Below, in pieces: positions 34,814 to 57,237 of a DNA stretch of 62,053 bases. A model generated the notes under the pieces. The model worked only from the letters and a program-made list of their open reading frames with translations, searched no databases and was not told the DNA's origin. The stretch's first letter is position 1. Every line of letters starts with the position of its first letter. The position numbers and the translations under genes are program-made. The DNA is from Ilumatobacteraceae bacterium (lineage in GTDB: Bacteria > Actinomycetota > Acidimicrobiia > Acidimicrobiales > Ilumatobacteraceae), in the NCBI GenBank assembly GCA_009691255.1, contig SHUT01000008.1:1-62053 (forward strand), read 5' to 3'.

Positions 34814-35644
34814 CTACAAGTAGGCATCGTATTTGTCGAGAATACGAAACACTTCATCACGATCCGCGGTTGGCAATCGAAATACAACTTCTGTGCAACC
34901 GATTTCTTCGTAGTACGCCAATTTTTCAGCAGAAGGCAATGTTCCGAATGGCACAACGTCTGGTGAGCCAGACCGACCAGCCTTTTTCCATGCCTCAGTG
35001 AGAGCCGGCAGCGCCTCGCGCACACCAGACCCACCAATGGGAAACCATCCGTCTGCCCACTCGCTGATATGTGCAAAAATTTTTGGTCCGCCTGCACCAC
35101 CGACAAGCGTTCGAATGCGTGGTTGTTGTTTTGGTTTTGGCCATGCCCAACTTGGGTCGAGAGTGATGAATTCGCCAGAAAATGATGCTTCTTCTTGCGA
35201 CCACAGCGCCTGCATCGTCAGCACATACTCGCGCACTTTGTCGCGACGAGTTGAATACTCAACACCGTGATGCGCCATTTCTTCTTTGTTCCAACCAAAA
35301 CCAACGCCCATCACTGCCCGACCACCGCTTACATAGTCCAGAGTGGCCCATTCTTTGGCGTAGCTCACTGGATCATGTTGAGCAACCAATGACACTCCAC
35401 TACCCAGTAGCAAATTCTTGGTCACTGCGGCACAACCACCAAGTGCCACCATTGGGCCGAGAGTGCGCAGGTATTCGTTTGGCAACTCGGGTCCGCCAGT
35501 TGGAGCGGGCGTGGCGCGACTCGAGGGTATATGAGTGTGTTCCGGTAAATATAAACTGATGTAACCACGATTTTCTGCTTCGATTGCTAAATCAGTGAGC
35601 GCAATCGATTGATCTGTGGCAAATATCGTGAGTCCGAGTTTCAT
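34814..35644 (-). CDS. LLM-class (F420-type) flavin-dependent oxidoreductase
   Basis: A 276-residue luciferase-like monooxygenase-fold protein. MKLGLTIFATDQSIALTDLAIEAENRGYISLYLPEHTHIP opens the barrel. SYAKEWATLDYVSGGRAVMGVGFGWNKEEMAHHGV and VGGAGGPKIFAHISEWADGWFP are the diagnostic actinobacterial segments of the Rv-type TIGR03619 group, usually F420-dependent. It may reduce or oxidise a hydrophobic substrate. It is followed on the same strand by an extended SDR, one base away. Confidence 0.87.
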   Translation of the reverse strand: MKLGLTIFATDQSIALTDLAIEAENRGYISLYLPEHTHIPSSRATPAPTGGPELPNEYLRTLGPMVALGGCAAVTKNLLLGSGVSLVAQHDPVSYAKEWATLDYVSGGRAVMGVGFGWNKEEMAHHGVEYSTRRDKVREYVLTMQALWSQEEASFSGEFITLDPSWAWPKPKQQPRIRTLVGGAGGPKIFAHISEWADGWFPIGGSGVREALPALTEAWKKAGRSGSPDVVPFGTLPSAEKLAYYEEIGCTEVVFRLPTADRDEVFRILDKYDAYL

Positions 35645-35645
35645 C

Positions 35646-36599
35646 TCAACCTTTCAGTAAATCTGGCCTGTTTGTTGCAACCAGACGACGAATACCATCA
35701 TGCCAGTCAACTGATGAATTAAACCCTGTGGCATGCAACTTTGTGAGGTCAGGAATAATTGCGGCGATTGTCGCAGTGGTTGGCTCAAATTTTGGCGTCA
35801 GTCCAGTTAGGCGACCCATCTCTTGGCACCAGTCCTCAATGCTCACAACTTGATCTCCGCCCCAGTTGATGATGGTTGCTGGAGCCGAAGAAACCGACAA
35901 CAGATACGGAATACTGCGCGCGATGTCATCTGCGTGGATAGGTGTATAACTCGTTGGCTGATCAATGTGCACTGGCACGGCCATGTCGCGTTCCATCATC
36001 ATTAGATGAAACAACATCCATCCATATGTATCGCCATACGGAACATTGAGTCGCGCAACAACCGTTGGCACCCCCAAACGTTTGGCCGTGTATCGCACCA
36101 ATACCTCTCCAGCAATTTTGGAAATACTGTAGGTCGGCATTCCGGGCATCGGACGATGGCTGTCGCCTAGTAGATCGGTTTCTGCACGCGGGTCATGATT
36201 ATGTGGTGCGTACACGGCAGTCGACGAACAATGCAAAAATGCCGTCATCTTGTCACTCTTTGCCGCTGCGGCCTCCATAAGCATTGCACTGCCATCAGCA
36301 TTTGCGGCAAATGCCTGTTCGAAATCACTGCTCTTTGTCACCGCAAAATGCAAAACAAAATCAAGATCAGTAGGAACTTCATGAAGGAGGCCCTTTTCGA
36401 GATCAATCGACACACAATTCACGCCTTTGGCTAGAAGCGGTTCGCGCTGTTCAGGTTTGCGAAAACGTGCTGCTCCAAATACTTCTGCTCCAGCATTGGC
36501 TAGTGACTCCGCGATTGGTCCAGCAACCCAACCAGTAACACCAGTGACGAGCACTCGCTTGCCGCTGAATTGGCCCAAGTCGTCAGACACTGATGTCAC
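35646..36599 (-). CDS. NAD-dependent epimerase/dehydratase (extended SDR)
   Basis: A 317-residue extended short-chain dehydrogenase. It has RVLVTGVTGWVAGPIAESLANAG (glycine-rich nucleotide loop) and FLHCSSTAVYAPH, and Tyr and Lys in TYSISKIAGEVLV form the YxxxK pair. The C-terminal substrate domain contains INWGGDQVVSIEDWCQEMGRLTG. It resembles actinobacterial sugar epimerases and 3-beta-hydroxysteroid-type enzymes. Substrate unknown; it overlaps the next gene by 4 bases. Confidence 0.85.
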   Translation of the reverse strand: MTSVSDDLGQFSGKRVLVTGVTGWVAGPIAESLANAGAEVFGAARFRKPEQREPLLAKGVNCVSIDLEKGLLHEVPTDLDFVLHFAVTKSSDFEQAFAANADGSAMLMEAAAAKSDKMTAFLHCSSTAVYAPHNHDPRAETDLLGDSHRPMPGMPTYSISKIAGEVLVRYTAKRLGVPTVVARLNVPYGDTYGWMLFHLMMMERDMAVPVHIDQPTSYTPIHADDIARSIPYLLSVSSAPATIINWGGDQVVSIEDWCQEMGRLTGLTPKFEPTTATIAAIIPDLTKLHATGFNSSVDWHDGIRRLVATNRPDLLKG

Positions 36600-37384
36600 A
36601 GTTGATCCGTGTATTTATCGGTTCCAAAGACAGTCTGAATAAAAGGTGCAGTCCAGAGATGCGTAGCAACACCACTGTCGTTTAGCGCTTGACCGTAGTT
36701 CGCGTATCCCTTTTCCCAGCCCTTCATAGGATCACGGTCTACAAAATGAATCTGCAAAAATCGACGATCGGCGTTTGCTGTGCGCGGCACGTCTGGTGGT
36801 GCGTCGTCTAGCAACGGAAGTGGCGTGGAATTGAGAATCAATTCAGGTCCCCACTTCTTGCTCATCGCACGAGGAGCCCACACGTCGCGGGTCCATGCCT
36901 CAACGTCTGCATGAGTCTTGCCTGGGGCAAGTTCACCGACATTAACGATTATTCCGGCAAAGTTTCTGTCTAGGGCTTGTTCTACTGGAGTGTTGCGCTC
37001 ACCATTTTGAATTGACCATTCATGGTTATAAAGCAATGTATGAATATGGTCTCGCTCGGCAAACATGCGTCCTGTTGCGTGCAGATTCTTGACGGTGTCA
37101 ACACTCCAACGGTTCCACTCATCGTGGAACCCTTTGAGCACCCAATAAATAGCCAAATATGAACCAGTCCGAGGGTCTGGGGTCATCGGCGTCACTGCTG
37201 GATACCGCAACTTTTTTAGTTCCTTAGTAGCTACAAATCGATCCCCAGCAAATGTGTTTGCTCCCACTAAACATCCACCGTAAAAATGATCGGTCTCGTA
37301 CCACCTGTTGTAGTCAACCTCGTGACCCTTGCGGGGCTCAACCATCGTGAACAACAATGTTCCTAACTCAATCGGTTTGCTCAC
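36596..37384 (-). CDS. Unrecognised protein, possible tandem alpha-beta-barrel (EthD/NIPSNAP-like)
   Basis: About 262 residues. The fold guess rests on two similar beta-alpha segments: IELGTLLFTMVEPRKGHEVDYNRWYETDHFYGG near the N-terminus and RRFLQIHFVDRDPMKGWEKGYANYG near the C-terminus, each ending in a Tyr/Trp-rich helix, as in dimeric alpha-beta-barrel proteins. No catalytic motif is named with confidence. The GTG at 37384 is preferred because a strong GGGGGAG precedes it by 8 bases; an upstream ATG at 37405 is possible. It overlaps the SDR at 35646 by 4 bases, forming a three-gene run with the LLM enzyme. Confidence 0.7.
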   Translation of the reverse strand: MSKPIELGTLLFTMVEPRKGHEVDYNRWYETDHFYGGCLVGANTFAGDRFVATKELKKLRYPAVTPMTPDPRTGSYLAIYWVLKGFHDEWNRWSVDTVKNLHATGRMFAERDHIHTLLYNHEWSIQNGERNTPVEQALDRNFAGIIVNVGELAPGKTHADVEAWTRDVWAPRAMSKKWGPELILNSTPLPLLDDAPPDVPRTANADRRFLQIHFVDRDPMKGWEKGYANYGQALNDSGVATHLWTAPFIQTVFGTDKYTDQL

Positions 37385-37453
37385 AATTTTTTCTCCCCCG
37401 CTCATGAAATGTCCTTGACCAAAACGGTAGCAAGAAAGAGCCCGAGAGTTTCT

Positions 37454-38095
37454 ATGGGAACCACGAGCAACTACCGTATGGGTATGGATATGAGCGGTCG
37501 ATTCAGCCCTTCAACAACGGCCGTGGTCACGATGGAGATGCAGCGAGGCATCTGCGGAGACCTCGCGGCATTTGTGGCACTCCAAGAAGCAGTCGCCCAT
37601 GGCGTTGCCGATCAGACTGGCGTCTTGCTTGATGCGGCTCGGCTGCATAAATACACGATAATGCATTGCATTTTTAGTTTGCGCGCCGACCGCGTCGGAA
37701 CTCGAATGGATCTTCCACTCATGGCCGCGGCACGCAAAGACCCAAACTATTTATTGCAATCAACAGATGGCGTTGCACTACTACCTCAGTTGCATCAAGC
37801 GACATCAGATCTGGTGTGTGAACGACATCACGGTGTCAGCCCATTTACCGAAACAGACCTTGATGCGCGGCTGCGCGACAAGGGCATAGACACCTTGATA
37901 GTCGCTGGAGTTTCTCTTAATTTAGGCATTGTTGGGCTTTCTATTGAGGCTGTCAATCTTGGATACACAGTAGTTGTTGCCACCGATGCAGTCGCTGGGT
38001 TCCCTGCTGAATATGCACAAAATGTTTTGCGCAATACATTGGCAGCAATAACACTGCAAGCAACAGTTGCTCAAGTCGTTGTCGCCCTTGCGTGA
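37454..38095 (+). CDS. Isochorismatase-fold protein lacking the catalytic triad
   Basis: About 213 residues with the cysteine-hydrolase/isochorismatase Rossmann fold: TTAVVTMEMQRG at the start, DLVCERHHGVSPFTETDLDARLRDKG in the middle, and IVAGVSLNLGIVGLSIEAVNLGYTVVVATDAVAGFP near the end. Compared with active members, the catalytic Asp is Glu (MEMQ), the Lys position appears as Arg (CERHH), and the nucleophilic Cys is Gly (codon GGC 37925-37927). The rest of the fold is well kept, so this is not random decay. The start could be ATG 37409; ATG 37454 has a weak GAGAG upstream. Probable non-hydrolytic role. Confidence 0.8.
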   Translation: MGTTSNYRMGMDMSGRFSPSTTAVVTMEMQRGICGDLAAFVALQEAVAHGVADQTGVLLDAARLHKYTIMHCIFSLRADRVGTRMDLPLMAAARKDPNYLLQSTDGVALLPQLHQATSDLVCERHHGVSPFTETDLDARLRDKGIDTLIVAGVSLNLGIVGLSIEAVNLGYTVVVATDAVAGFPAEYAQNVLRNTLAAITLQATVAQVVVALA

Positions 38096-38102
38096 CTCGG
38101 TA

Positions 38103-38966
38103 CTACAGACCCCACACGCAAATCGGTCCAGCGACTTCTTCTAAATCTTTGCGGCGTGAAAAATCAACACCGAGCGCGAGAGTAACAACACCCCCACTTT
38201 GCATTGCAATCTGTAATTGCAGCATCCTGTCTTGACTAGACAACGGTTGTGCATCTTGTGACCAGACCTCGACTACAAATGCCGAACCAATACTGCGCGC
38301 TCGTTCTAATACTGATTCTGTTACGTCATCAATAGAATCAGTGACGACAACTGCAGTTTGTCCGATTCGCGCTGCTGTTAGCGCAGCAGTTGCTGCGAAG
38401 CCTGGGGTGGGGTTTGTCGGCAATAGCACGCTGCCAAGTTGACGAGTCGGAAATGTTCGTCCTAGCCAGAATCCACAAATATTGGCGTCGGCTGTCACGA
38501 ACGCGTTCTCAGGCATATAAGTCGCAAGGTCTGCTGCGGCACGAGCAGGGTTCATGGGCATTGTGTCTTGTGTATACATTGGTTGACAGACTGCAGCCAA
38601 CGCACCATAAAGTGCCGGTCGTGTAATTACGGTCTCTCGAACATCAATTTGTAGCGCTGATATTTCATTCGTATTGACATCGCGCCACGTGACGCCGAGT
38701 GCCATCAGCAACGCTCGTGGTATTTCTGCCTCGTCCATTCCGAGCATCAATACCTCGTCGGCTTGGTTGAGTTGTGCAAGAACTAGATCGTCGCGTTGCA
38801 AACCAATCGTTCCGAGATGCGCAGGGTTATCCCACTGAAATAATCCCTTTGCGGCCCACGAGTTAAAAACTCCTGTTTGTGTTCTGTCAACAAGTTCTCG
38901 AAGTTCGTGCACTACTCCGTCGCGCACAACACCACCGCCAGCGACAATGATGGTGCCTAATCCCAT
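38103..38966 (-). CDS. Thiamine-diphosphate-enzyme-like protein lacking PYR domain and TPP motif
   Basis: A 287-residue protein resembling the central and C-terminal parts of acetolactate-synthase-like enzymes. TIIVAGGGVVRDGVVHELRELVDRTQTGVFNSWAAKGLFQWDNPAHLGTIGLQ matches the middle domain. The C-terminal part ENAFVTADANICGFWLGRTFPTRQ, then TPGFAATAALTAARIG matches the start of the PP domain. The GDG...N cofactor motif is replaced by VVTDSIDDV, and the N-terminal PYR domain with its catalytic Glu is absent. It cannot bind TPP alone by this evidence, so it is a pseudoenzyme or half of a split partner. The start overlaps the EthD gene stop (TAATG). Confidence 0.72.
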   Translation of the reverse strand: MGLGTIIVAGGGVVRDGVVHELRELVDRTQTGVFNSWAAKGLFQWDNPAHLGTIGLQRDDLVLAQLNQADEVLMLGMDEAEIPRALLMALGVTWRDVNTNEISALQIDVRETVITRPALYGALAAVCQPMYTQDTMPMNPARAAADLATYMPENAFVTADANICGFWLGRTFPTRQLGSVLLPTNPTPGFAATAALTAARIGQTAVVVTDSIDDVTESVLERARSIGSAFVVEVWSQDAQPLSSQDRMLQLQIAMQSGGVVTLALGVDFSRRKDLEEVAGPICVWGL

Positions 38967-39313
38967 TACTTACCAAGGACAATGGTGGGGTCGTCAGTAA
39001 GAGTCCACACAATGTTTGAGGTATCTAAAAACTTCTTCGTGTCGGCGATCATGTCCCCAAAATCAGACTCTCCCATATGGGCAAAAAAAGCCTCCGTCGA
39101 CTCAAACCACTGAATCGTGACCCCGTCATACTCTGGTTCTGGAAAACTGCTGCCAGGTGCTGGCCATGCTGCGGGGTGCTGTTCATAGCGGCTGACATAA
39201 CGAGCCGCCGAAGACCCAGCAATCAATGGGCCATGGGTATTTCGCCAGTATGCCAGGAACTCCTCATGGGTGGTTCCGGGTTTGCGCTTGAGTAACGAGA
39301 TCAACTTCACCAT
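38966..39313 (-). CDS. EthD-domain protein
   Basis: A 115-residue dimeric alpha-beta-barrel protein: MVKLISLLKRKPGTTHEEFLAYWRNTHGPLIAG, the classic EthD opening with the NTHGPL helix, then YDGVTIQWFESTEAFFAHM and a C-terminal EDPTIVLGK-like end. The longest frame starts at 39502, but that region lies inside the divergent SDR, so I start at ATG 39313. EthD proteins accompany P450 or ring-degrading enzymes; exact role unknown. Its stop overlaps the TPP-like gene start by one base. Confidence 0.82.
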   Translation of the reverse strand: MVKLISLLKRKPGTTHEEFLAYWRNTHGPLIAGSSAARYVSRYEQHPAAWPAPGSSFPEPEYDGVTIQWFESTEAFFAHMGESDFGDMIADTKKFLDTSNIVWTLTDDPTIVLGK

Positions 39314-39354: not shown

Positions 39355-40113
39355 ATGGGATTAGTTGAACAAAAAGTAGCTCTCGTGACCGGTGCCGGCA
39401 GGGGAATCGGAGAACATAGTGCTCGCCTCTTTGCCGCTGAAGGAGCGTCTGTGGTTGTAGTAGATCTAGATGGTGATGCCGCGTCACGGGTGGCTCAAGC
39501 AATTGTTGACCTTGGCGGCAAGGCTATTGGTGTGCAAGCAGACGTCACTGACGAGCAACAGGTCATCGCCATGGTTGCAGCCACTGTCGAACATTTCGGT
39601 CGTCTTGATTGTGCGCATAACAATGCTGGCATCAGTGGCAACATGACCGCATTCACTGATCTATCGCTCGATGACTGGAACAAGATGATTGCAATTAATC
39701 TCACCAGTGTTTTCTTGTCGATGAAACATGAAATACCAGCCATGCTCGCATCTGGTGGTGGCGCGATTGTCAACACCTCTAGCGGCGCAGGTGTTGTTGG
39801 GTTTGCAGGTTTACCGCATTATGTGGCCGCCAAACATGGTGTTGTTGGTCTGACCAAAACCGCGGCACTGGAATACGCAAAGAGCAACATTCGAGTAAAC
39901 GCCGTTTTGCCCGGCACCACCAATACTCCGATGATTCAGCAGTTCACAGACTTAAATCCTGATATTGGCAAGATGATTGCAAAATCAGTAGGTCGTGGTT
40001 CGCTCGGACTACCCGAAGAAATCGCTCAGGCCGCAGTGTGGCTGTGCAGCGATCGGGCCAGTTTTGTAAGTGGCGATTCGATGCTAGTTGACGGTGCAAC
40101 AGTGTGCCGATAG
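39355..40113 (+). CDS. SDR-family NAD(P)-dependent oxidoreductase
   Basis: A 252-residue classical SDR. KVALVTGAGRGIGEHSA (8-24), VVVDLDGDAA (NAD-favouring Asp), HNNAGISG, the catalytic Ser in VNTSSGAGVVG and YVAAKHGVVGL give the full catalytic set. The C-terminal end ADSVGRGSLGLPEEIAQAAVWLCSDRASFVSG resembles cyclohexanol/2,5-diketocamphane-type and 3-alpha-hydroxysteroid dehydrogenases. It is divergent from the EthD gene, with 41 bases between starts. The SnoaL-like gene begins 2 bases after its stop. Confidence 0.9.
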   Translation: MGLVEQKVALVTGAGRGIGEHSARLFAAEGASVVVVDLDGDAASRVAQAIVDLGGKAIGVQADVTDEQQVIAMVAATVEHFGRLDCAHNNAGISGNMTAFTDLSLDDWNKMIAINLTSVFLSMKHEIPAMLASGGGAIVNTSSGAGVVGFAGLPHYVAAKHGVVGLTKTAALEYAKSNIRVNAVLPGTTNTPMIQQFTDLNPDIGKMIAKSVGRGSLGLPEEIAQAAVWLCSDRASFVSGDSMLVDGATVCR

Positions 40114-40115
40114 CC

Positions 40116-40820
40116 ATGTTTAACCACGATGAAGTTGAGCGTGCATTTCACGATTTTTTACGCGTTGGTGCGTATGGTCACGACTGGCCAGCATGGTCGG
40201 CAATATTCACTGATGATGCGTTATATACCGAGCACTGCCTTGGCGTGTTTATCGGAGCAGAGCAAATAAATAACTGGATTGTTCCGCAGATGCAGATGGT
40301 TCCGGCGATGACATTTTCTATCGAGTGGTACGACATTGTCGACAACACAATCGCCTTCTGGATCTGGAACCATTTACCAGATCCGACTGGGGGTTCTGCC
40401 CGCTTCGACTTCCCTAACTTTTCTCTACTTACATACGCAGGTAACAGTAGATGGAGCAAAGAAGAAGATGTTTATGACCCACGCAGTAGCGAACCAGTTG
40501 TCATGAGTTGGTTCAAGGCAGGCGGAAATGTCGACACACCCCAGGATCGCACTCTTCGAGCACCCCAGTTCACACATCCGACACTGCCCCAAAACACACC
40601 GACTACTAATCAGATGAATTTGGCTATCGCAGCAGTCGTTCCATCTGGCGCAACACTGCGCCAAAAAATCATCAACGGTGCGCGGGCGTCGTTGGTCTAT
40701 GACACGACAGAACGCACATACGGCACTGTATTGCATGTTGACGACACTGGTGCTGTGGTGTTTCGCGACGATTTCACTAACATGCGTGAGAACTTCACCA
40801 CTAAGGATGTACGCCGATGA
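40116..40820 (+). CDS. SnoaL/NTF2-like protein
   Basis: About 234 residues. The N-terminal half, VERAFHDFLRVGAYGHDWPAWSAIFTDDALYTEHCLGVFIGAEQINNWI, fits the NTF2-like cone used by SnoaL cyclases, ketosteroid isomerases and dehydratases. The C-terminal segment FTTKDVRR is charged. It is unusually long for one NTF2 domain, and the second half (AGGNVDTPQDRTLRAPQFTHP) is not assigned. The ATG at 40116 follows the SDR stop; a GTG at 40104 is the alternative. It overlaps the next gene by 4 bases. Confidence 0.75.
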   Translation: MFNHDEVERAFHDFLRVGAYGHDWPAWSAIFTDDALYTEHCLGVFIGAEQINNWIVPQMQMVPAMTFSIEWYDIVDNTIAFWIWNHLPDPTGGSARFDFPNFSLLTYAGNSRWSKEEDVYDPRSSEPVVMSWFKAGGNVDTPQDRTLRAPQFTHPTLPQNTPTTNQMNLAIAAVVPSGATLRQKIINGARASLVYDTTERTYGTVLHVDDTGAVVFRDDFTNMRENFTTKDVRR

Positions 40821-41521
40821 CCAACCAATGTGTCTATCTACACGAAACAATTGACATTGTTGGACAAGGTCGTGCGGCTTACAACGATCACATGTGTGCG
40901 TACATCCCTACCGCCATCCAAGAGCGCCGACTGCAAATGGTCGGCAATTTCTCTACTGTTGGCACCACCGAACGCTGGCCAGAAAGCATTAACCTCTGGG
41001 AGTTTCTTGACGGGTGGGACGGAGTCGCACGCAATTTCAAGCACGAATTCACCAATGCTGTTCATCAAGATAAAAATTTAGTGCCGTGGTGGACAGAGGC
41101 GCTCAAACATCGCAGCGGCGGATACGACAGACTCATGCTGGCGTCAGCGCAAACACCAAGAGCCGAGCAACTGCACTCACGTGGGGTTACTGGTGAGTGT
41201 TACTACCACGAAATAGTTCAACTTAAGCCCGGAACTGCGACCCGTTATCTGGCAATGATTGACCAACAACGCACAGAAATTGGTGCGTCATATGGCTGGC
41301 AACTTATTGGTGCATATCGCCACGCCCTTGTAAATGACTCTGAAGCAATCGTGGTGTGGGCAGTTCCTACTTGGCAACACTGGGCAGAATGGGAGCACAA
41401 ACGCGGCGGCGACTCAGCAGTGCAAAAGTGGCTAGACAGCACTGACGGAATTGTGATTGATTGGCGCGCCAAGTTATTGGCGGCGAGCGCCCAGAGCCCT
41501 TTGGGTAACTCAGCGCCTTAA
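40817..41521 (+). CDS. Unrecognised tandem alpha-beta-barrel protein (NIPSNAP-like)
   Basis: A 234-residue protein with two repeats of a beta-alpha ferredoxin-like pattern: CVYLHETIDIVGQGRAAYNDHM...SINLWEFLDGWDGV and CYYHEIVQLKPGTATRYLAMIDQQR...EAIVVWAVPTWQHWAEWE. The second resembles NIPSNAP segments, with WAEWEH near the end. No catalytic residue assigned. It overlaps the SnoaL-like gene by ATGA, so it is the third cistron of the SDR run. The C-terminal region up to SAPLGNSAP is disordered-looking. Confidence 0.68.
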   Translation: MTNQCVYLHETIDIVGQGRAAYNDHMCAYIPTAIQERRLQMVGNFSTVGTTERWPESINLWEFLDGWDGVARNFKHEFTNAVHQDKNLVPWWTEALKHRSGGYDRLMLASAQTPRAEQLHSRGVTGECYYHEIVQLKPGTATRYLAMIDQQRTEIGASYGWQLIGAYRHALVNDSEAIVVWAVPTWQHWAEWEHKRGGDSAVQKWLDSTDGIVIDWRAKLLAASAQSPLGNSAP

Positions 41522-41525
41522 CTAA

Positions 41526-42632
41526 TCAGGTTCCTTTGCGCCAACCTCGCAGTACTTCTTGGGCCACATGAGAACCAGGATGAACTGGTTCGCCAGCTTC
41601 AGTGGGAGTCGCCGAAAAACGCGGTGCCGCCTGGGCATGTAAACCACCATTGCGCCGAACCACTGTGCCGCGTGCCTTGGTGTGACGATGGACCTCAACT
41701 TCTTTGGCACTCAACACGGGCGTGGCGCAAGTCTCAAAGCCTTCAAGCAACTCGCTCCACTCATCGCGGGTTCGGGTTGCAAACATCTCTGTCATTTTCA
41801 GTTTCTGCTCTGGCCAAACAGACTTGTCCCACTGTGGCCCGAAATCTACAAACTGCATGCGTTGAATAAGTTCTGCAAAGAACTGATCTTCGATTGCTCC
41901 GATCGCAAAATATTTTCCGTCTTTGCATGCAAATACTCCGTAAAACGGTGCAGCCCCATCAAGATGATTTGTTCCGCGTGGCCCCCAGTTGCCCGTATCT
42001 ACGCCTGGGAAAAACATTCCGCCAACCAGCGCCGCACCTTCGACCATTGAGATATCGATCACTTGACCTTGACCAGTGGTGCGTTGGTGCACCAGTGCCG
42101 CCGAAACTCCCATTGCTAGCAACATTCCACCACCCGCAAAATCACCGAGCAAATTGATCGGAGGTTGCGGTGCCCCGTCGGCTTGTCCGAGCATGTCAAG
42201 CACCCCAGATAGAGAGATGTAGTTAATGTCGTGTCCGGCAACATGGGCAAACGGACCGTCTTGCCCAAACCCAGTCATGCGAGCAAAAATCAGCCCTGGA
42301 TTAAGTGCCATGCATACATCTGGCCCGATACCGAGCCTCTCGCATACACCTGGCCTAAAGGGATCAACCAGTACGTCGGCAATAGCAATAAGTTCTTTAA
42401 GTACCGTCACATCGTCGGCTTTTTTTAGATCAAGTGAAATCATGCGCTTACCTCTTGTGAACGGAGAGATTGATGGTCGTTCTCGCTTCGCTTTTTGAGC
42501 CACCACAGGTCTGTCAACTGCAACGACATCACATCCAAGATCAGCCAAAATTGTTGCGCCCATCGGACCTGGTCCTTGTCCGACGAGTTCAACCACGCGT
42601 ACGCCACTCAGTGGCCCTCGACCAGTTGTCAT
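41526..42632 (-). CDS. Family III CoA-transferase (CaiB/BaiF)
   Basis: A 368-residue acyl-CoA transferase. VVELVGQGPGPMGATILADLGCDVVAVDRP at the N-terminus, LKKADDVTVLKEL, the active-site Asp region HDINYISLSGVLDML, and DISMVEGAALVGG fit the family, which swaps CoA between carboxylic acids via an aspartyl-CoA. The sequence resembles AMACR-like and carnitine-type members. Its first codon overlaps the acyl-CoA synthetase stop by 4 bases, so they are co-transcribed. Confidence 0.9.
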   Translation of the reverse strand: MTTGRGPLSGVRVVELVGQGPGPMGATILADLGCDVVAVDRPVVAQKAKRERPSISPFTRGKRMISLDLKKADDVTVLKELIAIADVLVDPFRPGVCERLGIGPDVCMALNPGLIFARMTGFGQDGPFAHVAGHDINYISLSGVLDMLGQADGAPQPPINLLGDFAGGGMLLAMGVSAALVHQRTTGQGQVIDISMVEGAALVGGMFFPGVDTGNWGPRGTNHLDGAAPFYGVFACKDGKYFAIGAIEDQFFAELIQRMQFVDFGPQWDKSVWPEQKLKMTEMFATRTRDEWSELLEGFETCATPVLSAKEVEVHRHTKARGTVVRRNGGLHAQAAPRFSATPTEAGEPVHPGSHVAQEVLRGWRKGT

Positions 42633-44227
42633 GACGCTTGACCCTTGGCAACAGACTCAATTGCATGCTTCTTTGCCCAACGGTAATCAGGTTTTCCGGC
42701 TGGAGATCTGACAATGTCAGATACCAACACCAATGCACGCGGTACTTTGTATCCAGCAATGTGTTGACGACAATGCGCTTGCAAGTCTTCTAGCGTCAAA
42801 GCGATACCTGGGCGCACCCGCACCAACGCCGTGACGAGTTCGCCCCATCGATCATCCGGAATACCCACCACCACCGCATCAAAAATTGCCCCATGAGACT
42901 TGAGTGAGTTCTCTACTTCTTCGGGAAATACTTTTTCGCCACCAGTATTAATGCTGACTGAACCACGACCCAACATGGTGATGCTGCCGTCTGATTCAAG
43001 TTGGGCGAAGTCTCCTGGAATAACGTACCGAACCCCATCTGCACCAACCACGAATGTCTCGGCAGTTTTTTCTGGATCATTTAGATACCCGATTGGAATG
43101 TTTCCGAATCGTGCAAGTCTTCCGATTTTGTTGGTACCGGCAATCATTGGCCTTAAATCTTCATCGAGCACCACTGCATCTCGTGATGCAGTAACCGTTG
43201 GACCACCTTGCATTTTTGTGCCTTTTGACACCATCGTGATGCCATTGGCGCCACTCTCGCTGCTACCAATGGCATCAGTAATCACCAAATTAGGAAAGTT
43301 GTCAAGAAATTCGTCTTTGCAAGTTTGCGAAAACAAAACAGCACTCGATGAGATTGCAAACAACGAAGACACATCAGGTGCCTCGTGTGCCATTGTCATT
43401 TCTTTCCATGTATCAAGCAACGGGCGCGCCATGGCGTCGCCAGTGATCATGATGAGATTGGCTTTTTCTGAAGCGATTGTGTTCCAGACAACTCTGGCAT
43501 CAAACTTTTCGCGCAGCACGGTGGAATTGCCGACGAAACTCTGCCCCATCACGCTCCATTGCGACGCACCGTGCATTAGTGGTGGCAATGGGTATGTCAC
43601 CATTGAAAATCCAGTATTGCCCTTCGGAATAAAATCAGTTGGCTCTGATACTTTTTCGCCGCTTCGAATATCTATTCCCCCACCCAGTGCCATCAATACG
43701 TCTTCATGTCTCCAGACAACACCTTTTGGCATCCCGGTAGTGCCGCCGGTGAACAAGATGTACTGATCGTCATTTGATCGTGGTGCAAAATCGCGTTGCT
43801 TAGATTCTGTTGCGATTGCGGTCTCGTATTCAGCGCCCATTATCAGCATTGGTAAATCGGGCTGTACTGCTTGTGCTTGCGCCACGAACTCTGGTTGCAC
43901 GACCAAAAAAGACAGTCCGGCATTGGCGAATAAATATGCCAATTCATCAGTGACGTATCGATAGTTGATGTTGATCCAGACGGCCCGCAATTTAAAGACT
44001 GCCCATAATGTTTCTACCCACTCCACGCAGTTGTAGGCATAAATGCCAACATGATCTCCCACGCCAACGCCTCGCGACGCCATGTAGTGGGCAAGTTGGT
44101 TAGCGCGTGCCTCAAGCTCGGCATATGTTCGGCGTGAGCGTTCATCGACCACATAGAGACGGTCAGGCCACTGGTCAACGGCCTGCTCGAAAAGATCAGC
44201 CAAGTTGTAGGTAGTAGTTGCGCTCAT
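42629..44227 (-). CDS. Acyl-CoA synthetase, FadD19/FadD17-like
   Basis: A 532-residue ANL-superfamily ligase that activates a carboxylic acid to its CoA thioester via an acyl-AMP. The phosphate loop is YILFTGGTTGMPKGVVWRHED (the TGGTTGMPKG signature, about 157-175). A-motifs include YIFP-like IGSSESGA, GRGSVSINTGGEKVFPEEVE and the catalytic Lys near the C-terminus (SPAGKPDYRW). The GGTTGMPKGV-W pattern resembles actinobacterial steroid side-chain ligases (FadD17/FadD19). That substrate is inferred, not proven. Confidence 0.86.
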   Translation of the reverse strand: MSATTTYNLADLFEQAVDQWPDRLYVVDERSRRTYAELEARANQLAHYMASRGVGVGDHVGIYAYNCVEWVETLWAVFKLRAVWININYRYVTDELAYLFANAGLSFLVVQPEFVAQAQAVQPDLPMLIMGAEYETAIATESKQRDFAPRSNDDQYILFTGGTTGMPKGVVWRHEDVLMALGGGIDIRSGEKVSEPTDFIPKGNTGFSMVTYPLPPLMHGASQWSVMGQSFVGNSTVLREKFDARVVWNTIASEKANLIMITGDAMARPLLDTWKEMTMAHEAPDVSSLFAISSSAVLFSQTCKDEFLDNFPNLVITDAIGSSESGANGITMVSKGTKMQGGPTVTASRDAVVLDEDLRPMIAGTNKIGRLARFGNIPIGYLNDPEKTAETFVVGADGVRYVIPGDFAQLESDGSITMLGRGSVSINTGGEKVFPEEVENSLKSHGAIFDAVVVGIPDDRWGELVTALVRVRPGIALTLEDLQAHCRQHIAGYKVPRALVLVSDIVRSPAGKPDYRWAKKHAIESVAKGQAS

Positions 44228-44318: not shown

Positions 44319-45125
44319 ATGACCGGAACAGAACACCTCAAAGTCGAACGCCACGGGCATGTTCTCGTGGTCACAATGAATCGGCCTGAAGCCAAGAATG
44401 CGCTGAGTCCTGCCATGTTGGTCGGCATGGCCGACGCATGGAAGTCACTCAATGAAGATGACGATCTGCGATGTGCTGTGCTCACTGGCTCAGGCGGAAG
44501 TTTCTGCACGGGCATGGACCTTAAAGCACGGGCTAGCGAAGGCCAAGAAGAAGCTGAGAATGCGTACAAACAAAGATGGGCTGATGACCCAGATATTCAC
44601 TGGAAAGGTTTGTTGCGCCACTATCGGTTGCACAAGCCATTGATTGCCGCAGTCGAAGGATACGCCGTAGCTGGTGGCACAGAAATTTTGCAAGCAACAC
44701 ACATACGAGTTGCTGGTGAAAGCGCCACGTTCGGAGTCTTTGAAGCCAAACGCGGATTGTTTCCGCTTGGCGGATCAACGGTTCGTTTGCAGCGACAAAT
44801 CGGTTATACAAATGCCCTCGAGATGTTATTGACTGCACGCGGCTACACCGCCCAAGAAGCAAAAGACATCGGACTAATCGGACATGTTGTGCCAGATGGC
44901 GAAGCACTCAACAAGGCCCTCGAACTTGCCCAAATGATTGCTGCCAATGGCCCACTTGCAATAGAAGCAATTCTAAAATCAGTTCAAGAGACTGCATCCA
45001 TGTCAGAAGAAGACGGACTCAAGCGGGAGTTTGAAATCGGGTGGCCAATATTTTCTACAGAAGACTCAAAGGAAGGTCCGCGAGCATTTGCCGAAAAGCG
45101 GGCACCTGTTTGGACTAAAAAATAA
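44319..45125 (+). CDS. Enoyl-CoA hydratase/isomerase family protein
   Basis: A 268-residue crotonase. VERHGHVLVVTMNRPEAKNALS opens the fold. SFCTGMDLKAR and VAGGTEILQATHIRVAGESATFGVFEAKRGLFPLGG supply the oxyanion-hole backbones; the second catalytic Glu region reads EAKRGLF. KRAPVWTKK is the usual tail. AAGGA precedes the ATG by 7 bases. It is divergent from the acyl-CoA synthetase, suggesting a joint fatty- or steroid-acyl-CoA pathway. Confidence 0.9.
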   Translation: MTGTEHLKVERHGHVLVVTMNRPEAKNALSPAMLVGMADAWKSLNEDDDLRCAVLTGSGGSFCTGMDLKARASEGQEEAENAYKQRWADDPDIHWKGLLRHYRLHKPLIAAVEGYAVAGGTEILQATHIRVAGESATFGVFEAKRGLFPLGGSTVRLQRQIGYTNALEMLLTARGYTAQEAKDIGLIGHVVPDGEALNKALELAQMIAANGPLAIEAILKSVQETASMSEEDGLKREFEIGWPIFSTEDSKEGPRAFAEKRAPVWTKK

Positions 45126-47512: not shown

Positions 47513-47528
47513 TCTGTAGACATAAGCA

Positions 47529-47614
47529 CGGGGAGCTCGCAGGTACAGCGGGCTGAGAGGGTGGTTGCCGCCACCGACCCGAAGACCTGATCTGGGTAAT
47601 GCCAGCGGAGGGAG
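47529..47614 (+). ncRNA. TPP (thi-box) riboswitch
   Basis: The conserved elements are in order: CGGGGAGC (47529-47536), GGCTGAGAG (47551-47559), ACCCG (47577-47581), ACCTGATCTGGGTAATGCC (47585-47603) and AGCGGAGGGA (47604-47613). The terminal GGAGGGAG (47608-47615) lies 5 bases before the ATG at 47621 and doubles as the Shine-Dalgarno, so TPP binding would block translation start. The outer P1 stem looks weak from sequence. It precedes the thiamine operon, as expected. Confidence 0.95.
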
Positions 47615-47620
47615 CAAAAC

Positions 47621-48295
47621 ATGGCGCCACTCAGCCAAACCAAAAAATTTGCAGTCATCATCTTGGGAGGTGCTGAACCTCGCCCCGATATTGCCAAATT
47701 ACTTCCAGTTGATGCAGTCATTGTCGCTGCTGATTCTGGTTGGGGCAATGCCCGAGTATTGGGCCTCACGCCAGATGTATTGATTGGCGATATGGACAGC
47801 ATCTTGCCCGCTGACCTTCTGGCAGCGCGACAGAGTGACGCAACTGTTTTTGAATTCGATGCCGACAAAGATGCCACTGATACTGAACTTGCGCTCACAC
47901 ACGCTCAGAGTATTGGATGCACCGACATCGTGGTGGTCTCTGGTGGGGGCGATCGGATTGATCATGTGCTCGGAATCATTGCCGCACTTGGCCATGCATC
48001 GCTCACTACATGCACCGTGACGGCATTTATCGACACTGCTCGATTCACTGTCGTTCGTGCTGGCTCCCCTGTTCATATTGATGCCCCACTCAATTCATCG
48101 CTCAGCATTTTTGCAATGGGCTCAATGGCAACTGGTGTCACAGTGCGCGGAACAAAATGGCTCCTTGATAACGCCACGTTGTCGCCACATGAATCACGCG
48201 GCGTCAGCAACAGCGTAACGGCATCTCCTGTTGAAGTTTTTGTTACACATGGCACTCTCATCGTCATCCAGCCGCAAGCACTAGCAAACCCATGA
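47621..48295 (+). CDS. thiN: Thiamine diphosphokinase
   Basis: Transfers pyrophosphate from ATP to thiamine to make TPP. The 224 residues show VIVAADSGWG, the metal/ATP site PDVLIGDMDSI (about 60-70), FDADKDATDTELAL, and GGGDRIDHVLG (about 108-118), all characteristic of the family. It is the first gene behind the TPP riboswitch and overlaps thiB by 4 bases. A thiamine importer plus kinase without thiamine biosynthesis genes here suggests salvage from the environment. Confidence 0.93.
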   Translation: MAPLSQTKKFAVIILGGAEPRPDIAKLLPVDAVIVAADSGWGNARVLGLTPDVLIGDMDSILPADLLAARQSDATVFEFDADKDATDTELALTHAQSIGCTDIVVVSGGGDRIDHVLGIIAALGHASLTTCTVTAFIDTARFTVVRAGSPVHIDAPLNSSLSIFAMGSMATGVTVRGTKWLLDNATLSPHESRGVSNSVTASPVEVFVTHGTLIVIQPQALANP

Positions 48296-49281
48296 AGCGA
48301 ACAACAACTGCCGTCATTCTCATCGCGTCAATCGCACTGGGCTCTTGCTCTTCAGACAACACTGCAATCAAATCTGGCGGGACCATTAAATTGTTGGCAT
48401 ACGACGCGTTCACCCCCGAGCCTGAAATTTTTACATCGTTCACTAAAGAAACTGGCATCGATGTCATCGTCGGCCTTGGCGGAGATACTGGCACACTGGT
48501 ATCTAAAGCACTGCTCACTGCTGGAAACCCCGAGGCTGACGTGTTATGGGGCATCGACAACACGCTCATTTCGCGTGCAGTTGATGGTGATTTATTTGAA
48601 TCGTACACAGAAGTAGATACTGCGGCCGTCTGCGTCAACTACGACAAAGATTTTTTCACAAGCGCTGGCATTGCTCCCCCAACTACGCTCGATGAACTTG
48701 CATTACCTGCATATAAAGACATGCTCGTCATCCAAAACCCCATCACGAGTTCTCCGGGACTTGCTTTTATGTTGGCGACAATCTCCAAGTTCGGAGTGGA
48801 CGGCTGGGAGCAATACTGGAGCAGTCTTCGCACGAACGGCGTCAAAATTGTTGACGACTGGACATCTGCATACACCGTCGAGTTCTCTGGTTCAAGCGGT
48901 CAGGGAAAATATCCACTTGTCGTCAGTTACGCAAGCAGCCCGCCTGCAGAAGTTGTCTACAGCGATCCACCTGTGACAGAACCGCCTACTGCCGTGATGG
49001 AGCAAACGTGTTTTGGGCAAGTCGAATATGCCGGAATCTTGCGCGGAACAAAAAAGTCAAAGGTTGCGCAAAAACTGATCGACTTCTTAACGGGCAAAAT
49101 ATTCCAGGAGTCCATGCCACTGACTTTGTTTGTATTACCTATCAACCCAGATGCTGTCTTGCCTGATGTCTTCACTAAATTTGCCGTCATCCCCCAGAAT
49201 CCGCTCACTTTGGATGCTTCCGACATTGCTTCTAACCGCGCTACATGGTTGGACGCATGGACAAACATCATGCTGCGATGA
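48292..49281 (+). CDS. thiB: Thiamine ABC transporter substrate-binding lipoprotein
   Basis: A 329-residue periplasmic/extracellular binding protein. The N-terminus MKRTTTAVILIASIALGSC is a lipoprotein signal peptide with lipobox LGSC (Cys19), so it is tethered to the membrane. The body matches ThiB: LLAYDAFTPEPEIFTSFTKETG, GNPEADVLWGIDNTL, and the diagnostic VVSYASSPPAEVVY near 220. It ends overlapping the permease by 4 bases. Confidence 0.92.
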   Translation: MKRTTTAVILIASIALGSCSSDNTAIKSGGTIKLLAYDAFTPEPEIFTSFTKETGIDVIVGLGGDTGTLVSKALLTAGNPEADVLWGIDNTLISRAVDGDLFESYTEVDTAAVCVNYDKDFFTSAGIAPPTTLDELALPAYKDMLVIQNPITSSPGLAFMLATISKFGVDGWEQYWSSLRTNGVKIVDDWTSAYTVEFSGSSGQGKYPLVVSYASSPPAEVVYSDPPVTEPPTAVMEQTCFGQVEYAGILRGTKKSKVAQKLIDFLTGKIFQESMPLTLFVLPINPDAVLPDVFTKFAVIPQNPLTLDASDIASNRATWLDAWTNIMLR

Positions 49282-50840
49282 TGACGACACTGGCTTCCTT
49301 GCGACGTGGCGCTATCTTGTGCTGTGCGTTACCGCTGGTTTGGTTGTCTTTGTTTTATGTCTTGCCATTAGGCACGATATTTTTTCGTGCTCTTGATGTA
49401 TCAGCTTTAATTGACACAATCGGCAACTCCGGAATCCGTCACGTTTTATGGTTCACATTGTGGCAAGCAACACTCAGCACGGCACTCACGGTGATTATTG
49501 CATTCCCCATCACTTGGGCTTGCTCGCAATGGGACTTCACTGGCAAGCACTTAGTCGTCGGGCTCGTGACAGTGCCCTTTGTGCTTCCCACAGTCATCAT
49601 CGCTGGCGCTATTCGCACTTTACTGCCTGAGTCTTTGAGTTCTGGAGTAGTGGGCATCTTGTGTGCTCATGTGATTTTTAATGTCGCTGTTGTTTTGCGT
49701 ATTGTCAGCGCCCGCTGGCAACAAGTACACCCCAATACTGCTTCAGCATCACGCATATTGGGCGCGTCTTCCTGGAAGACATTTTGGCTCATCACATGGC
49801 CAATGATTCGCTCGGCGGTGGCCAGTGCAGTCGGAATCGTTTTTATCTTTTGTTTTACTTCTTTTGGCGTCATAAAAGTTTTGGGTGGGCCGCGCTACTC
49901 AACAATCGAACTAGAAATTTTTATTCGCGCAGTGCAACTAGGTGACACCAGTACTGCAGTTGCTCTTGTTGTCTTGCAGCTCATTGTCATCGGCGTAGTT
50001 CTGGGGCTCACGATGCCACGTAATACAGCTTCTCTTAAAATAATCACTTACCGCACATCGTGGATTGGTGATTATCCCCGTCAACAAACACTCGTGCGTG
50101 CGTCAGTGTTCGCCACTATTTTATTAATTGGTGCACCATTTTTAACAATGTTCATAAACTCTTTTCGAGTTCGCAGTAACTGGAGCATCAACCCATGGCG
50201 CCACCTTTTTGATGGCACACTTCGCCCAATGGGCGTAGACGTTGCGCCCGCCATGAGCAACTCAGTCATCTTCGCTGCAATAACCATCGTCATCACTGTT
50301 CCGTTGGCACTCTGTCTCGCCTCTATTAGCGCATATTCGTCATCCCACGCTGGACGCAGACTCATTACCGCCTTGGCCAGTGCACCACTCGCAACATCTG
50401 CAGTCGCATTAGGTCTTGGCATGATAATTACTTTTGATCAATCCCCTATTAATTGGCGTGCGCATTGGTTGCTTTTAGTCTGCGCACATTGCACCATTGC
50501 ACTTCCTTTAGCACTGCGCTCACTCACTGCCCCTTTGCAATCGATCCCCCCAGCCCTGCGTGACTCTGCCAGAACGCTTGGAGCATCAGCGCTGCAGACC
50601 TGGTGGCACGTCGACATCGCAATCATACGACGACCACTTTTAGTCGCTGCTGGTCTGAGTGCGGCAGTTTCGCTCGGTGAGTTTGGCGCAACGTCATTCT
50701 TGACACGCACCGGCAACGACACCATCCCGACAACAATTGCGCGGCTGCTTAGCCGTCCTGGAGATGTAGTGCAATCAAGTGGCTATGCACTGGCATCATT
50801 ATTTGTAGTACTAGTGATTGGGGTAATGAGCAATGCTTGA
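49278..50840 (+). CDS. thiP: Thiamine ABC transporter permease
   Basis: A fused two-domain permease of about 520 residues with roughly 12 membrane segments. Two EAA-type loops are seen (ASRILGASSWKTFWLITWPMIR and ARTLGASALQTWWHVDIAIIRR), one per half, as in ThiP. ATG 49278 overlaps the thiB stop (ATGA); an upstream in-frame ATG at 49245 lies inside thiB and is rejected. It overlaps thiQ by 8 bases. Confidence 0.9.
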   Translation: MMTTLASLRRGAILCCALPLVWLSLFYVLPLGTIFFRALDVSALIDTIGNSGIRHVLWFTLWQATLSTALTVIIAFPITWACSQWDFTGKHLVVGLVTVPFVLPTVIIAGAIRTLLPESLSSGVVGILCAHVIFNVAVVLRIVSARWQQVHPNTASASRILGASSWKTFWLITWPMIRSAVASAVGIVFIFCFTSFGVIKVLGGPRYSTIELEIFIRAVQLGDTSTAVALVVLQLIVIGVVLGLTMPRNTASLKIITYRTSWIGDYPRQQTLVRASVFATILLIGAPFLTMFINSFRVRSNWSINPWRHLFDGTLRPMGVDVAPAMSNSVIFAAITIVITVPLALCLASISAYSSSHAGRRLITALASAPLATSAVALGLGMIITFDQSPINWRAHWLLLVCAHCTIALPLALRSLTAPLQSIPPALRDSARTLGASALQTWWHVDIAIIRRPLLVAAGLSAAVSLGEFGATSFLTRTGNDTIPTTIARLLSRPGDVVQSSGYALASLFVVLVIGVMSNA

Positions 50841-51483
50841 CGTTTGCAACATGAGCGTTTCCCTCGGTGGCGTGTCAATCGTGCAGAATTTTTCTCTACA
50901 GGTTTCTGCGGGCACTACAACAGCACTAGTCGGGCCGAGTGGCAGCGGAAAAACAACTATTTTGCAGACCATCTGTGGCGTTGTACCAATGACGTCCGGC
51001 TCGGTCTCGTACGACGGCGTCGACATCACCAACATGCCAATCCATCTGCGCAAAATTGGGATGGTGTTTCAGAACTCCGACCTTTTTTCACATCTCAGCG
51101 TCTGGCACAACATCGCCTTTGGCCTTAGGTTTGTTTCACCACGGCTCGTACCCGAAGCAGTTACACAGCGAGTCCAGGAACTCTTGCATCTTATTGGTAT
51201 GGACACATTTGGTGATCGACGCATCAATGATCTATCAGGCGGAGAACAACGTCGTGTTGCGCTTGCCCGTGCCCTTGCTCCACGACCACACCTGTTGTTG
51301 CTCGACGAGCCATTTAGCGCTCTTGACTCAACCTTGCGCTGGCGGCTCATTGACGACGTACGAGATATTTTATCTGCAACACAAACAACGGCATTGATTG
51401 TCACCCATGACCAGCAAGAAGCAGATGCGCTTGCAACGCATACTGTGTCGATTGCCCCGCCAAGCACTACTGCACTTCACTAG
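50833..51483 (+). CDS. thiQ: Thiamine ABC transporter ATPase
   Basis: A 216-residue ABC ATPase with all motifs: Walker A GPSGSGKTT (about 35-43), Q-loop MVFQNSDLF, signature LSGGEQRR, Walker B LLLLDEPFSALD, and the switch His in VTHDQQEA. It powers ThiP-mediated uptake. It is the last gene of the riboswitch-controlled thiN-thiB-thiP-thiQ run; the GNAT gene begins 10 bases later and may be co-transcribed. Confidence 0.92.
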   Translation: MLDVCNMSVSLGGVSIVQNFSLQVSAGTTTALVGPSGSGKTTILQTICGVVPMTSGSVSYDGVDITNMPIHLRKIGMVFQNSDLFSHLSVWHNIAFGLRFVSPRLVPEAVTQRVQELLHLIGMDTFGDRRINDLSGGEQRRVALARALAPRPHLLLLDEPFSALDSTLRWRLIDDVRDILSATQTTALIVTHDQQEADALATHTVSIAPPSTTALH

Positions 51484-54267: not shown

Positions 54268-55050
54268 TCATGATCGCAAAGAACGACGCGGAATAACGGC
54301 AACGGTGCCATCTGGTTCATGATGAACATGCACCGATACGCCATAAAACTCAGCCAATGTTTCGGCCCGCAGCACCTCTTGAGCCGTACCACCAACCACT
54401 CGATGACCCTCATGCATCAATACCAGCCGGTCAGCGTAACTTCCAGCCAACGTGAGGTCGTGCATCGCCGACACCACGGTGAGCCCATGCTCACGACGCA
54501 GTTTGTCTACTAATTCAAGGGCCTGTTGTTGGTGTCCTATATCAAGAGAACTTGTTGGTTCGTCTAGCAACAAAATCGGTGCTTCTTGGGCAACGGCTCG
54601 AGCGATTGCGACACGTTGGCGCTCGCCGCCAGACAACGTTCCGAGTTGACGATGAGCAAGGTCAGTCAAGTCAAGTCGATCAAACACGCTGTCAACCATT
54701 GAGTTGTCGTGCATCGTCTCAGAACCAAAATGCGAGACATACGGATTGCGCCCCAACAATACATACTCATACGCGTTCATGTCTGTAGGCATCACGGGCG
54801 CTTGTGGAACATAGGCGACAAGTTGAGCACGACGACGTGAATTACGGTCGCGCAGTGTCGTGCCATCCACCACAATGTTTCCGGTAAATGCAACTATTCC
54901 GACAATGGCGCGCAAGAGCGATGATTTTCCGGCGCCATTGGGCCCGATTAAACACAACCACTCGCCTGGTCGAACTGTTTCACTGAATTCCATCACAGCA
55001 TTGCGTTGGCCATACCGAACTGAAACTGTTTCTAAGTTAAGAGATGTCAT
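54268..55050 (-). CDS. btuD: ABC transporter ATPase, BtuD/FecE type (cobalamin uptake)
   Basis: A 260-residue ABC ATPase: Walker A GPNGAGKSS (38-46), Q-loop YVPQAP, signature LSGGERQR, Walker B LLLDEPTSSLD and switch His in AMHDLTLA. The TSSLDIGHQQQALELVDKLR segment is typical of the FecE/BtuD group. It forms an operon with the FecCD-type permease (4-base overlap) and the binding protein behind the cobalamin riboswitch, so vitamin B12 is the likely substrate; siderophore uptake is a less supported alternative. Confidence 0.9.
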   Translation of the reverse strand: MTSLNLETVSVRYGQRNAVMEFSETVRPGEWLCLIGPNGAGKSSLLRAIVGIVAFTGNIVVDGTTLRDRNSRRRAQLVAYVPQAPVMPTDMNAYEYVLLGRNPYVSHFGSETMHDNSMVDSVFDRLDLTDLAHRQLGTLSGGERQRVAIARAVAQEAPILLLDEPTSSLDIGHQQQALELVDKLRREHGLTVVSAMHDLTLAGSYADRLVLMHEGHRVVGGTAQEVLRAETLAEFYGVSVHVHHEPDGTVAVIPRRSLRS

Positions 55051-56096: not shown

Positions 56097-56101
56097 TTTG
56101 T

Positions 56102-56989: not shown

Positions 56990-56992
56990 TTT

Positions 56993-57022
56993 TTCTTCCT
57001 CCGAAGATGCTTGGAGAAAGAA
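56993..57022 (-). promoter_or_regulatory. Hairpin sequestering the btuF Shine-Dalgarno
   Basis: On the minus strand TTCTTTCTCC (57022-57013) can pair with GGAGGAAGAA (57002-56993) in ten contiguous pairs, with one G-U, around a 10-base loop. The second arm contains the btuF Shine-Dalgarno, 3 bases before the start codon. It is placed directly after the cobalamin riboswitch and is the likely translation-blocking expression platform. Confidence 0.7.
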
Positions 57023-57087
57023 GAGTCGGGACAAGAGGCCGGCTATGCCGTTCTCTGCGGACCGCCCTTCCTTCGAGGGTTAGTATT

Positions 57088-57206
57088 CGCGCACAAAGCA
57101 GGCGACCGGACTTATCTGCTTTGGATTGTGTGATCCGAGGCAGCTTCACCGTTGCGGGACAGTGCCGGAGTTAAACCGGACTTCGCTGTTTTTTGTGCAT
57201 CGCGAC
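57088..57206 (-). ncRNA. Cobalamin riboswitch
   Basis: On the minus strand the core carries GAAGTCCGGTTTAACTCCGG (57185-57166), the B12 box GCACTGTCCCGCAACGGT (57165-57148), and AAGTCCGGTCGCCTGC (57115-57100). The outer stem pairs TCGC...GCACAAA (57206-57193) with TTTGTGCGCGA (57098-57088), 11 pairs with a small bulge. The box matches the AdoCbl-type consensus closely. It precedes btuF-btuC-btuD, whose vitamin uptake role it supports. Confidence 0.93.
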
Positions 57207-57237
57207 TATTGCCACAATGCCTCTTACCGTAGCAGAA

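Follow-up and report, generated by a model that had tools for sequence, protein, structure and literature searches.

Two adjacent genes in the stretch of DNA analyzed here (62,053 nucleotides, an entire contig, referred to throughout as the window) encode an isochorismatase-like protein and a relative of the thiamine diphosphate (ThDP) enzymes. As judged from aligned homologues, the change of canonical catalytic residues in each family predates the divergence of the sampled members and has been fixed since. Both genes belong to a single CoA-linked catabolic cluster, which is gained and lost in the genus in the manner of an island. They look like genes for working proteins with changed jobs rather than for decaying ones, because relatives have the same changes and because both genes are kept in one degradation cluster. 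What is new is the variant residue sets on known folds, together with a good comparative case: the pair affords a clean, conserved instance in which one pathway has put two enzyme folds to new use, and natural variants are at hand for testing. Literature searches returned no description of either subfamily, nor of any member with the Glu/Arg/small-residue set reported below. Our preferred reading of the sequences, held at slightly less than an even chance, is that the isochorismatase-like protein may be a thiol-free acid/base enzyme and that the ThDP-like protein beside it may be a ligand-binding partner that does not use thiamine.

Changed residues in an isochorismatase fold

The open frame at 37409–38095 (+) matches PF00857 with 92.1 bits, against a Pfam cut-off of 27. 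Its start is probably near 37478 rather than at 37409, because four of six genus relatives offer no start codon ahead of the point that aligns with residues 23–26 of the window protein. The coordinates of the pair and of the surrounding genes are collected in Table 1.

Table 1. Genes, domains, and residue positions in and around the pair
Feature	Coordinates	Strand	Basis or remark
F420-type luciferase-like oxidoreductase gene	34814..35644	-	TIGR03619, 206 bits, above cut-off
NAD-dependent epimerase/dehydratase-like gene	35646..36599	-	PF01370; conserved in cluster
Gene c7, divergent from isochorismatase-like gene	36596..37405	-	no Pfam or NCBIfam match
Isochorismatase-like gene, E/R/small-residue subfamily	37478..38095	+	PF00857; probable start, open frame from 37409
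E43, catalytic Asp position	37535..37537	+	aligned to Asp of EntB, RutB, and PncA
R139, catalytic Lys position	37823..37825	+	column of Lys in EntB and RutB
G173, catalytic Cys position	37925..37927	+	Gly of EntB in same column
ThDP-enzyme-derived gene without PYR domain	38103..38966	-	PF00205
T209-D210-S211, place of GDG cofactor motif	38334..38342	-	alignment with IlvI, Oxc, and a full-size relative
Retained central (M) domain, residues 6–116 of ThDP-like protein	38619..38951	-	Pfam span
EthD gene	38966..39313	-	PF07110, 57 bits
Short-chain dehydrogenase (SDR) gene	39355..40113	+	PF13561
SnoaL-like gene	40104..40820	+	PF12680, 29.3 bits against 27
Gene c8	40817..41521	+	no family match
Family III CoA-transferase (CaiB) gene	41526..42632	-	PF02515
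FadD-type acyl-CoA synthetase gene	42629..44227	-	NF005863, 677 bits, above cut-off
Enoyl-CoA hydratase (ECH) gene	44319..45125	+	PF00378; island edge, syntenic NifU/thiamine block next

The Asp-Lys-Cys triad of the cysteine hydrolases is absent from this protein, which has E43, R139, and G173 instead. The register at these positions is backed by E. coli EntB and RutB, both in the alignment and by hhalign; PncA, aligned without hhalign, is consistent at E43 and G173 and poor around the Lys. The first-pass annotation, which had described an isochorismatase-fold protein altered at all three catalytic positions, with Gly for Cys at exactly 37925–37927, was accurate on each point. The free variation of these residues that it named as grounds for doubt is not seen. 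Position 43 is Glu and position 139 is Arg in all 36 aligned homologues, and the position of the Cys is occupied by Gly (19 sequences) or Ala (17) and never by Cys. G167, S169, and N171 are each present in 36 of 36.

These 36 sequences comprise 33 from genomes and 3 from plasmid records. Besides the window and its relative G031, alignment A4 took 23 of the 28 order-wide loci, with L119, L122, L130, L132, and L141 omitted as near copies. The matches of L026, L029, and L031 contain a stop codon and were also left out, as were the contig-edge fragments L033 and L035; the open frames of the first three still have Glu, Arg, and either Gly or Ala. A homologue from a Nonomuraea record, outside the 36 rows, likewise has Glu, Arg, and Gly. 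In contrast to this set, the weak match L030, from a related genome, has the canonical Asp/Lys/Cys triad. An AlphaFold model built from 7 sequences (pLDDT 74.2) finds isochorismatase folds in Foldseek; the 50 matches listed all belong to the superfamily, with 3kl2 the best and RutB, VibB, and AngB among them.

With the isochorismatases EntB, PhzD, and VibB the window protein shares the PF00857 fold and an acid at the Asp position, and with EntB it shares, in addition, a Gly where the cysteine hydrolases have their nucleophile. It differs from them in having Glu for Asp and Arg for Lys, and in that its gene lies in a FadD/SDR/EthD catabolic cluster with no isochorismate genes among the neighbors scanned. 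Isochorismatases such as PhzD and EntB reportedly use the Asp and operate without a Cys nucleophile. Since EntB, a true isochorismatase, has Gly at this position, the Cys-to-Gly change does not by itself show that an enzyme is dead. A MenD/isochorismate pathway was considered for the locus and rejected, because the scan of window proteins turned up neither a MenD-type family match nor isochorismate genes.

The strictly kept Glu/Arg pair in the pocket suggests, insofar as conservation is a guide, either acid/base chemistry or an anionic ligand that is held tightly. In the preferred reading the isochorismatase-like protein would be an enzyme without a thiol, with Glu43 serving as general acid/base and Arg139 holding an anionic intermediate, which might be a carboxylate or an enolate. 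The room vacated by the Cys could be taken by substrate, by analogy with isochorismatase, which has the Asp and no Cys. An enzyme is favored over a scaffold because the pocket residues are conserved, which a scaffold would not require; the odds of a thiol-free enzyme seem no lower than those of a carrier or scaffold. Changes of Asp to Glu and of Lys to Arg often cripple such enzymes, and this counts against the preferred reading. If the isochorismatase-like protein is active, the catalytic needs of the fold can be separated from the Cys chemistry after which the hydrolases are named.

It is improbable that the protein has remained a cysteine enzyme by recruiting another Cys, for example C87 of the HC motif. 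This residue lies beside H86, itself present in 35 of the 36 sequences, and is Cys in 28 of them, including all 8 in the adjacent-pair clade described below; but the other rows have Ala (6), Gly (1), or Asn (1), and at C49 and C137 Cys is seen in just 8 and 5 of the 36 rows, respectively.

Proteins encoded on Rhodococcus and Mycobacterium plasmids (e.g. WP_042447336.1) have an E/R/Ala signature and are 28–33% identical to the window protein. Their genes also lie in catabolic neighborhoods, with FadD, SDR, and P450 genes on two Rhodococcus plasmids; unlike the window gene, they have no ThDP-like match within ~8 kb on either side. L112, L113, and L114, on plasmids of these two genera, are annotated as “cysteine hydrolase,” yet Ala replaces the catalytic Cys. 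The label misnames members of an actinobacterial subfamily.

A ThDP-like protein without a PYR domain

The ThDP-like gene converges with the isochorismatase-like gene, tail to tail, with 7 bases separating the stops. Its central domain matches PF00205 (TPP_enzyme_M) at 58.7 bits against a Pfam cut-off of 30.4, and this domain has 8 of the 11 invariant columns of the family alignment A3 (G10, A39, G41, G55, Q57, D60, G76, and E81). Like acetolactate synthase and oxalyl-CoA decarboxylase, the protein has an M domain and the framework of a PP domain. Unlike them, it is about half their length, lacks the GDG..NN motif of the PP domain that binds ThDP/Mg, and gives no Pfam match to a PYR domain with its activating Glu. 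The missing PYR domain and the substitution of TDS for GDG had both been claimed in the first-pass annotation and are borne out: V-T-G-D-G-S of IlvI aligns with V-T-D-S-I-D of the window protein. None of 35 aligned homologues has GDG at the IlvI column, and the letters occur elsewhere in three rows (L045, L048, and L108). A3 omits L054, L055, L068, and six more matches at E 2e-35 or better, of which two are second copies, whereas L107 and L108 entered it through a phylum-wide sample.

Of the 28 rows from outside the genus, 21 have longer stop-to-stop frames (379–709 residues) and were judged by eye to have an N-terminal remnant of the PYR domain. Among 14 remnants that were aligned, an ADxxG stretch is found in all and HEQ in none; hhalign puts the remnants on the start of the IlvI PYR domain, weakly (probability 46%, E 2e-4). 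The remnant is gone entirely in 14 of the 35 rows. Repeated loss of the PYR domain within the family is probable, because the tree requires five changes in its presence, two of them forced by well-supported branches; the labels behind this count were set by eye from the alignment, and that of L069 is doubtful.

Loss of both GDG and PYR rules out ordinary thiamine chemistry. Because GDG is missing from the aligned place in every row and HEQ from every aligned remnant, the ThDP-like protein is not an ordinary thiamine enzyme, and in that sense “pseudoenzyme” is a safe term for it. On the loss of ordinary thiamine catalysis in this protein the first-pass annotation is supported; a “dead” isochorismatase-like protein is not, as the fixed residues and the Gly of EntB make the same term too strong there. 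Some thiamine enzymes do have split PYR and PP domains, and the window protein might be half of such a two-subunit enzyme, with its PYR domain encoded elsewhere. We consider this very improbable: no PYR-like gene is present among 20 window proteins scanned, and neither GDG in the family nor HEQ in the PYR remnants of the fused relatives is retained.

In the preferred reading, and with less certainty than for the isochorismatase-like protein, the ThDP-like protein would no longer bind ThDP and would act as a ligand-binding partner of the adjacent FadD, SDR, and EthD enzymes, possibly for a CoA-bound intermediate. In its relatives the central, Rossmann-like M domain binds a nucleotide (FAD, ADP). 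Since this domain is also the best conserved, such a role is the best guess. The structure model is poor (pLDDT 61.5; the 50 matches listed are thiamine enzymes with low TM-scores), so retention of a ligand by the M domain is a proposal from sequence. Among solved structures the family profile scores best with acetolactate synthases. A plasmid search with the ThDP-like protein gave 5 weak matches (23–26% identity), 4 of them annotated as acetolactate synthase.

A catabolic island in the genus

The stop codon of the EthD gene overlaps the start of the ThDP-like gene (TAATG), and EthD is placed alike in six genus relatives and in G318, a genome from another family. The EthD, SnoaL, and redox genes that the first-pass annotation had listed as neighbors are indeed there; NIPSNAP, also listed, has no match among the 20 window proteins scanned. 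The FadD, CaiB, enoyl-CoA hydratase, SDR, F420-type oxidoreductase, and EthD genes, with a thiolase in relatives, suggest CoA-dependent degradation, and the compound degraded may be some acid, perhaps branched or cyclic. The cluster speaks for a route of CoA-dependent degradation in uncultured Acidimicrobiia, of which literature searches returned no description.

Within the genus, the pair is adjacent in 7 of 32 genomes and neither gene is found in the other 25; c7 has matches in all 7 pair-bearing genomes and in 0 of the 25 (E ≤ 1e-20). Together with G318, the seven form one clade in both gene trees, with SH-aLRT support of 99 (quick trees without bootstrap) and with G318 outermost in each. 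The gene order of the window recurs in six genus relatives: ECH, FadD, CaiB, c8, SnoaL, SDR, EthD, ThDP-like, isochorismatase-like, c7, epimerase, and luciferase-like. In G318 the cluster is complete except for the SnoaL gene. The order was checked by tblastn; codon-based ORF calling missed single genes. An extra block, consisting of APH, SnoaL-4, thiolase, HMG-CoA-synthase/OB-fold, and second CaiB genes, comes next in G318 and in five of the six genus relatives, though G022 and G318 each lack a match for one member. The contig of G021 ends ahead of the block, and in the window genome the thiolase of the block is found on a separate contig, 95% identical.

The catabolic cluster is an accessory island in the genus, gained or lost whole, because six of six sampled genus-mates without the pair keep the NifU-SDR-thiamine block while the catabolic genes are not found in the 19–20 kb read there. 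A functional link to thiamine had been considered, as a TPP riboswitch, a thiamine diphosphokinase gene, and transport-like genes lie ~8.5 kb from the ThDP-like gene. It was rejected because the block stands without the catabolic genes in those same six genomes; the block is a neighbor of the island, not a partner.

The TPP riboswitch (47521–47627, +; Rfam RF00059) lies ahead of genes at 47621–51483 (+) for the thiamine diphosphokinase and for a thiamine-type transporter made up of binding protein, permease, and ATPase. The kinase, binding protein, and permease are also present in the six genus-mates that lack the island. A match to the cobalamin riboswitch at 57122–57239 (-) is just over threshold (31.9 against 31.5 bits), and the genes downstream of it (54268–57034) appear transporter-like by sequence, perhaps for vitamin B12.

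No stops or frameshifts interrupt either gene of the pair in the window. Compared with G031, the nearest relative, dN/dS is 0.073 for the isochorismatase-like gene and 0.106 for the ThDP-like gene, with dS near 1, and nine neighboring genes give 0.026–0.077; the former gene is faster than seven of these nine and the latter faster than all nine. Over the five pairs tested, the values range over 0.044–0.127 and 0.059–0.236, respectively, the top value coming from the G021–G022 pair, where dS is 0.10 and the estimate is noisy. Both genes are clearly constrained by purifying selection, the ThDP-like gene less so than its neighbors in the window–G031 comparison, and the earlier description of the two as intact and selected is upheld.

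Decay of both genes toward loss, which the first-pass annotation had also raised, might be read from the patchy occurrence in the genus and from the loss of the PYR domain, probably more than once. We give it next to no likelihood, and at present sampling it is refuted: frames are free of stops, purifying selection is strong, the altered residues are common to genera of the order, and gain or loss concerns the whole island.

Distribution and linkage in the order

Among 298 genomes of the order, the ThDP-like gene is found in 36 (E ≤ 1e-50), the isochorismatase-like gene in 121 (E ≤ 1e-30), and c7 in 103 (E ≤ 1e-20). The first cut-off was chosen after the matches had been seen and excludes 6 of 42 matching genomes, in which the best E is 7e-28 to 9e-17 and the frames, 562–767 residues, are of ordinary thiamine-enzyme size. 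Both genes of the pair occur in 34 genomes, the ThDP-like gene alone in 2, the isochorismatase-like gene alone in 87, and neither in 175. The isochorismatase-like gene is thus present in 34 of 36 genomes with a ThDP-like gene versus 87 of 262 without, a comparison that, like the Fisher tests made on such counts, ignores shared ancestry. The two genomes with the ThDP-like gene alone are 67% and 80% complete. For the isochorismatase-like gene and c7 the corresponding counts, read with the same proviso, are 100 with both, 21 and 3 with either alone, and 174 with neither. Across 396 genomes sampled phylum-wide, the ThDP-like profile has matches in 11 at E ≤ 1e-30: eight in the order, one more in the class (a 327-residue frame), and two outside it, whose frames of 589 and 638 residues are again of ordinary thiamine-enzyme size.

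Close linkage is found in 9 of the 34 genomes with both genes, which have them on the same contig no more than 30 kb apart. They are adjacent in the window, G031, and G318, and 19–30 kb apart in G038, G131, G147, G245, G300, and G321; c7 lies between them in all six of the latter. In the remaining 25, the genes are on different contigs (24 genomes) or at least 1.2 Mb apart (G176). With the genus genomes included, the co-occurrence of a TPP-like neighbor, raised as a question in the first-pass annotation, amounts to adjacency in 8 genomes of one clade and a spacing of 19–30 kb in 6 more.

These distributions bear on whether both proteins could be non-catalytic, serving as ligand carriers or as stabilizing partners of the neighboring enzymes. 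Such roles are possible, though we would put them below an even chance. The textbook residues are gone in both families, both genes evolve faster than most of their neighbors, and they co-occur and are paired tail to tail. However, the pocket residues of the isochorismatase-like protein are strictly conserved, EntB too is without the Cys, and 87 of the 121 genomes with an isochorismatase-like gene have no ThDP-like gene, so this protein is independent of the ThDP-like partner. The preferred reading, a thiol-free enzyme beside a ligand-binding partner, has counted against it the faster evolution relative to most neighbors in the window–G031 comparison, which is possible for non-catalytic proteins, and the failure of close linkage in 25 of 34 genomes.

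A broader proposal is that the E/R/small-residue branch may represent a widespread group of unrecognized thiol-free enzymes that, in part of the order, share a pathway with a ThDP-derived nucleotide- or CoA-binding subunit. We hold this tentatively, as appreciably more likely to fail than to stand; its breadth is that of the profile matches in 121 of 298 order genomes, with the signature read in 36 aligned sequences.

Gene c7 is a candidate new family, with a homologue in 103 of the 298 genomes, 100 of which also have the isochorismatase-like gene. The 19–30 kb neighborhood (L168–L179) is common to six genomes from three other families of the order and contains isochorismatase-like, luciferase-like, SDR, EthD, c7, FadD, and ThDP-like genes.
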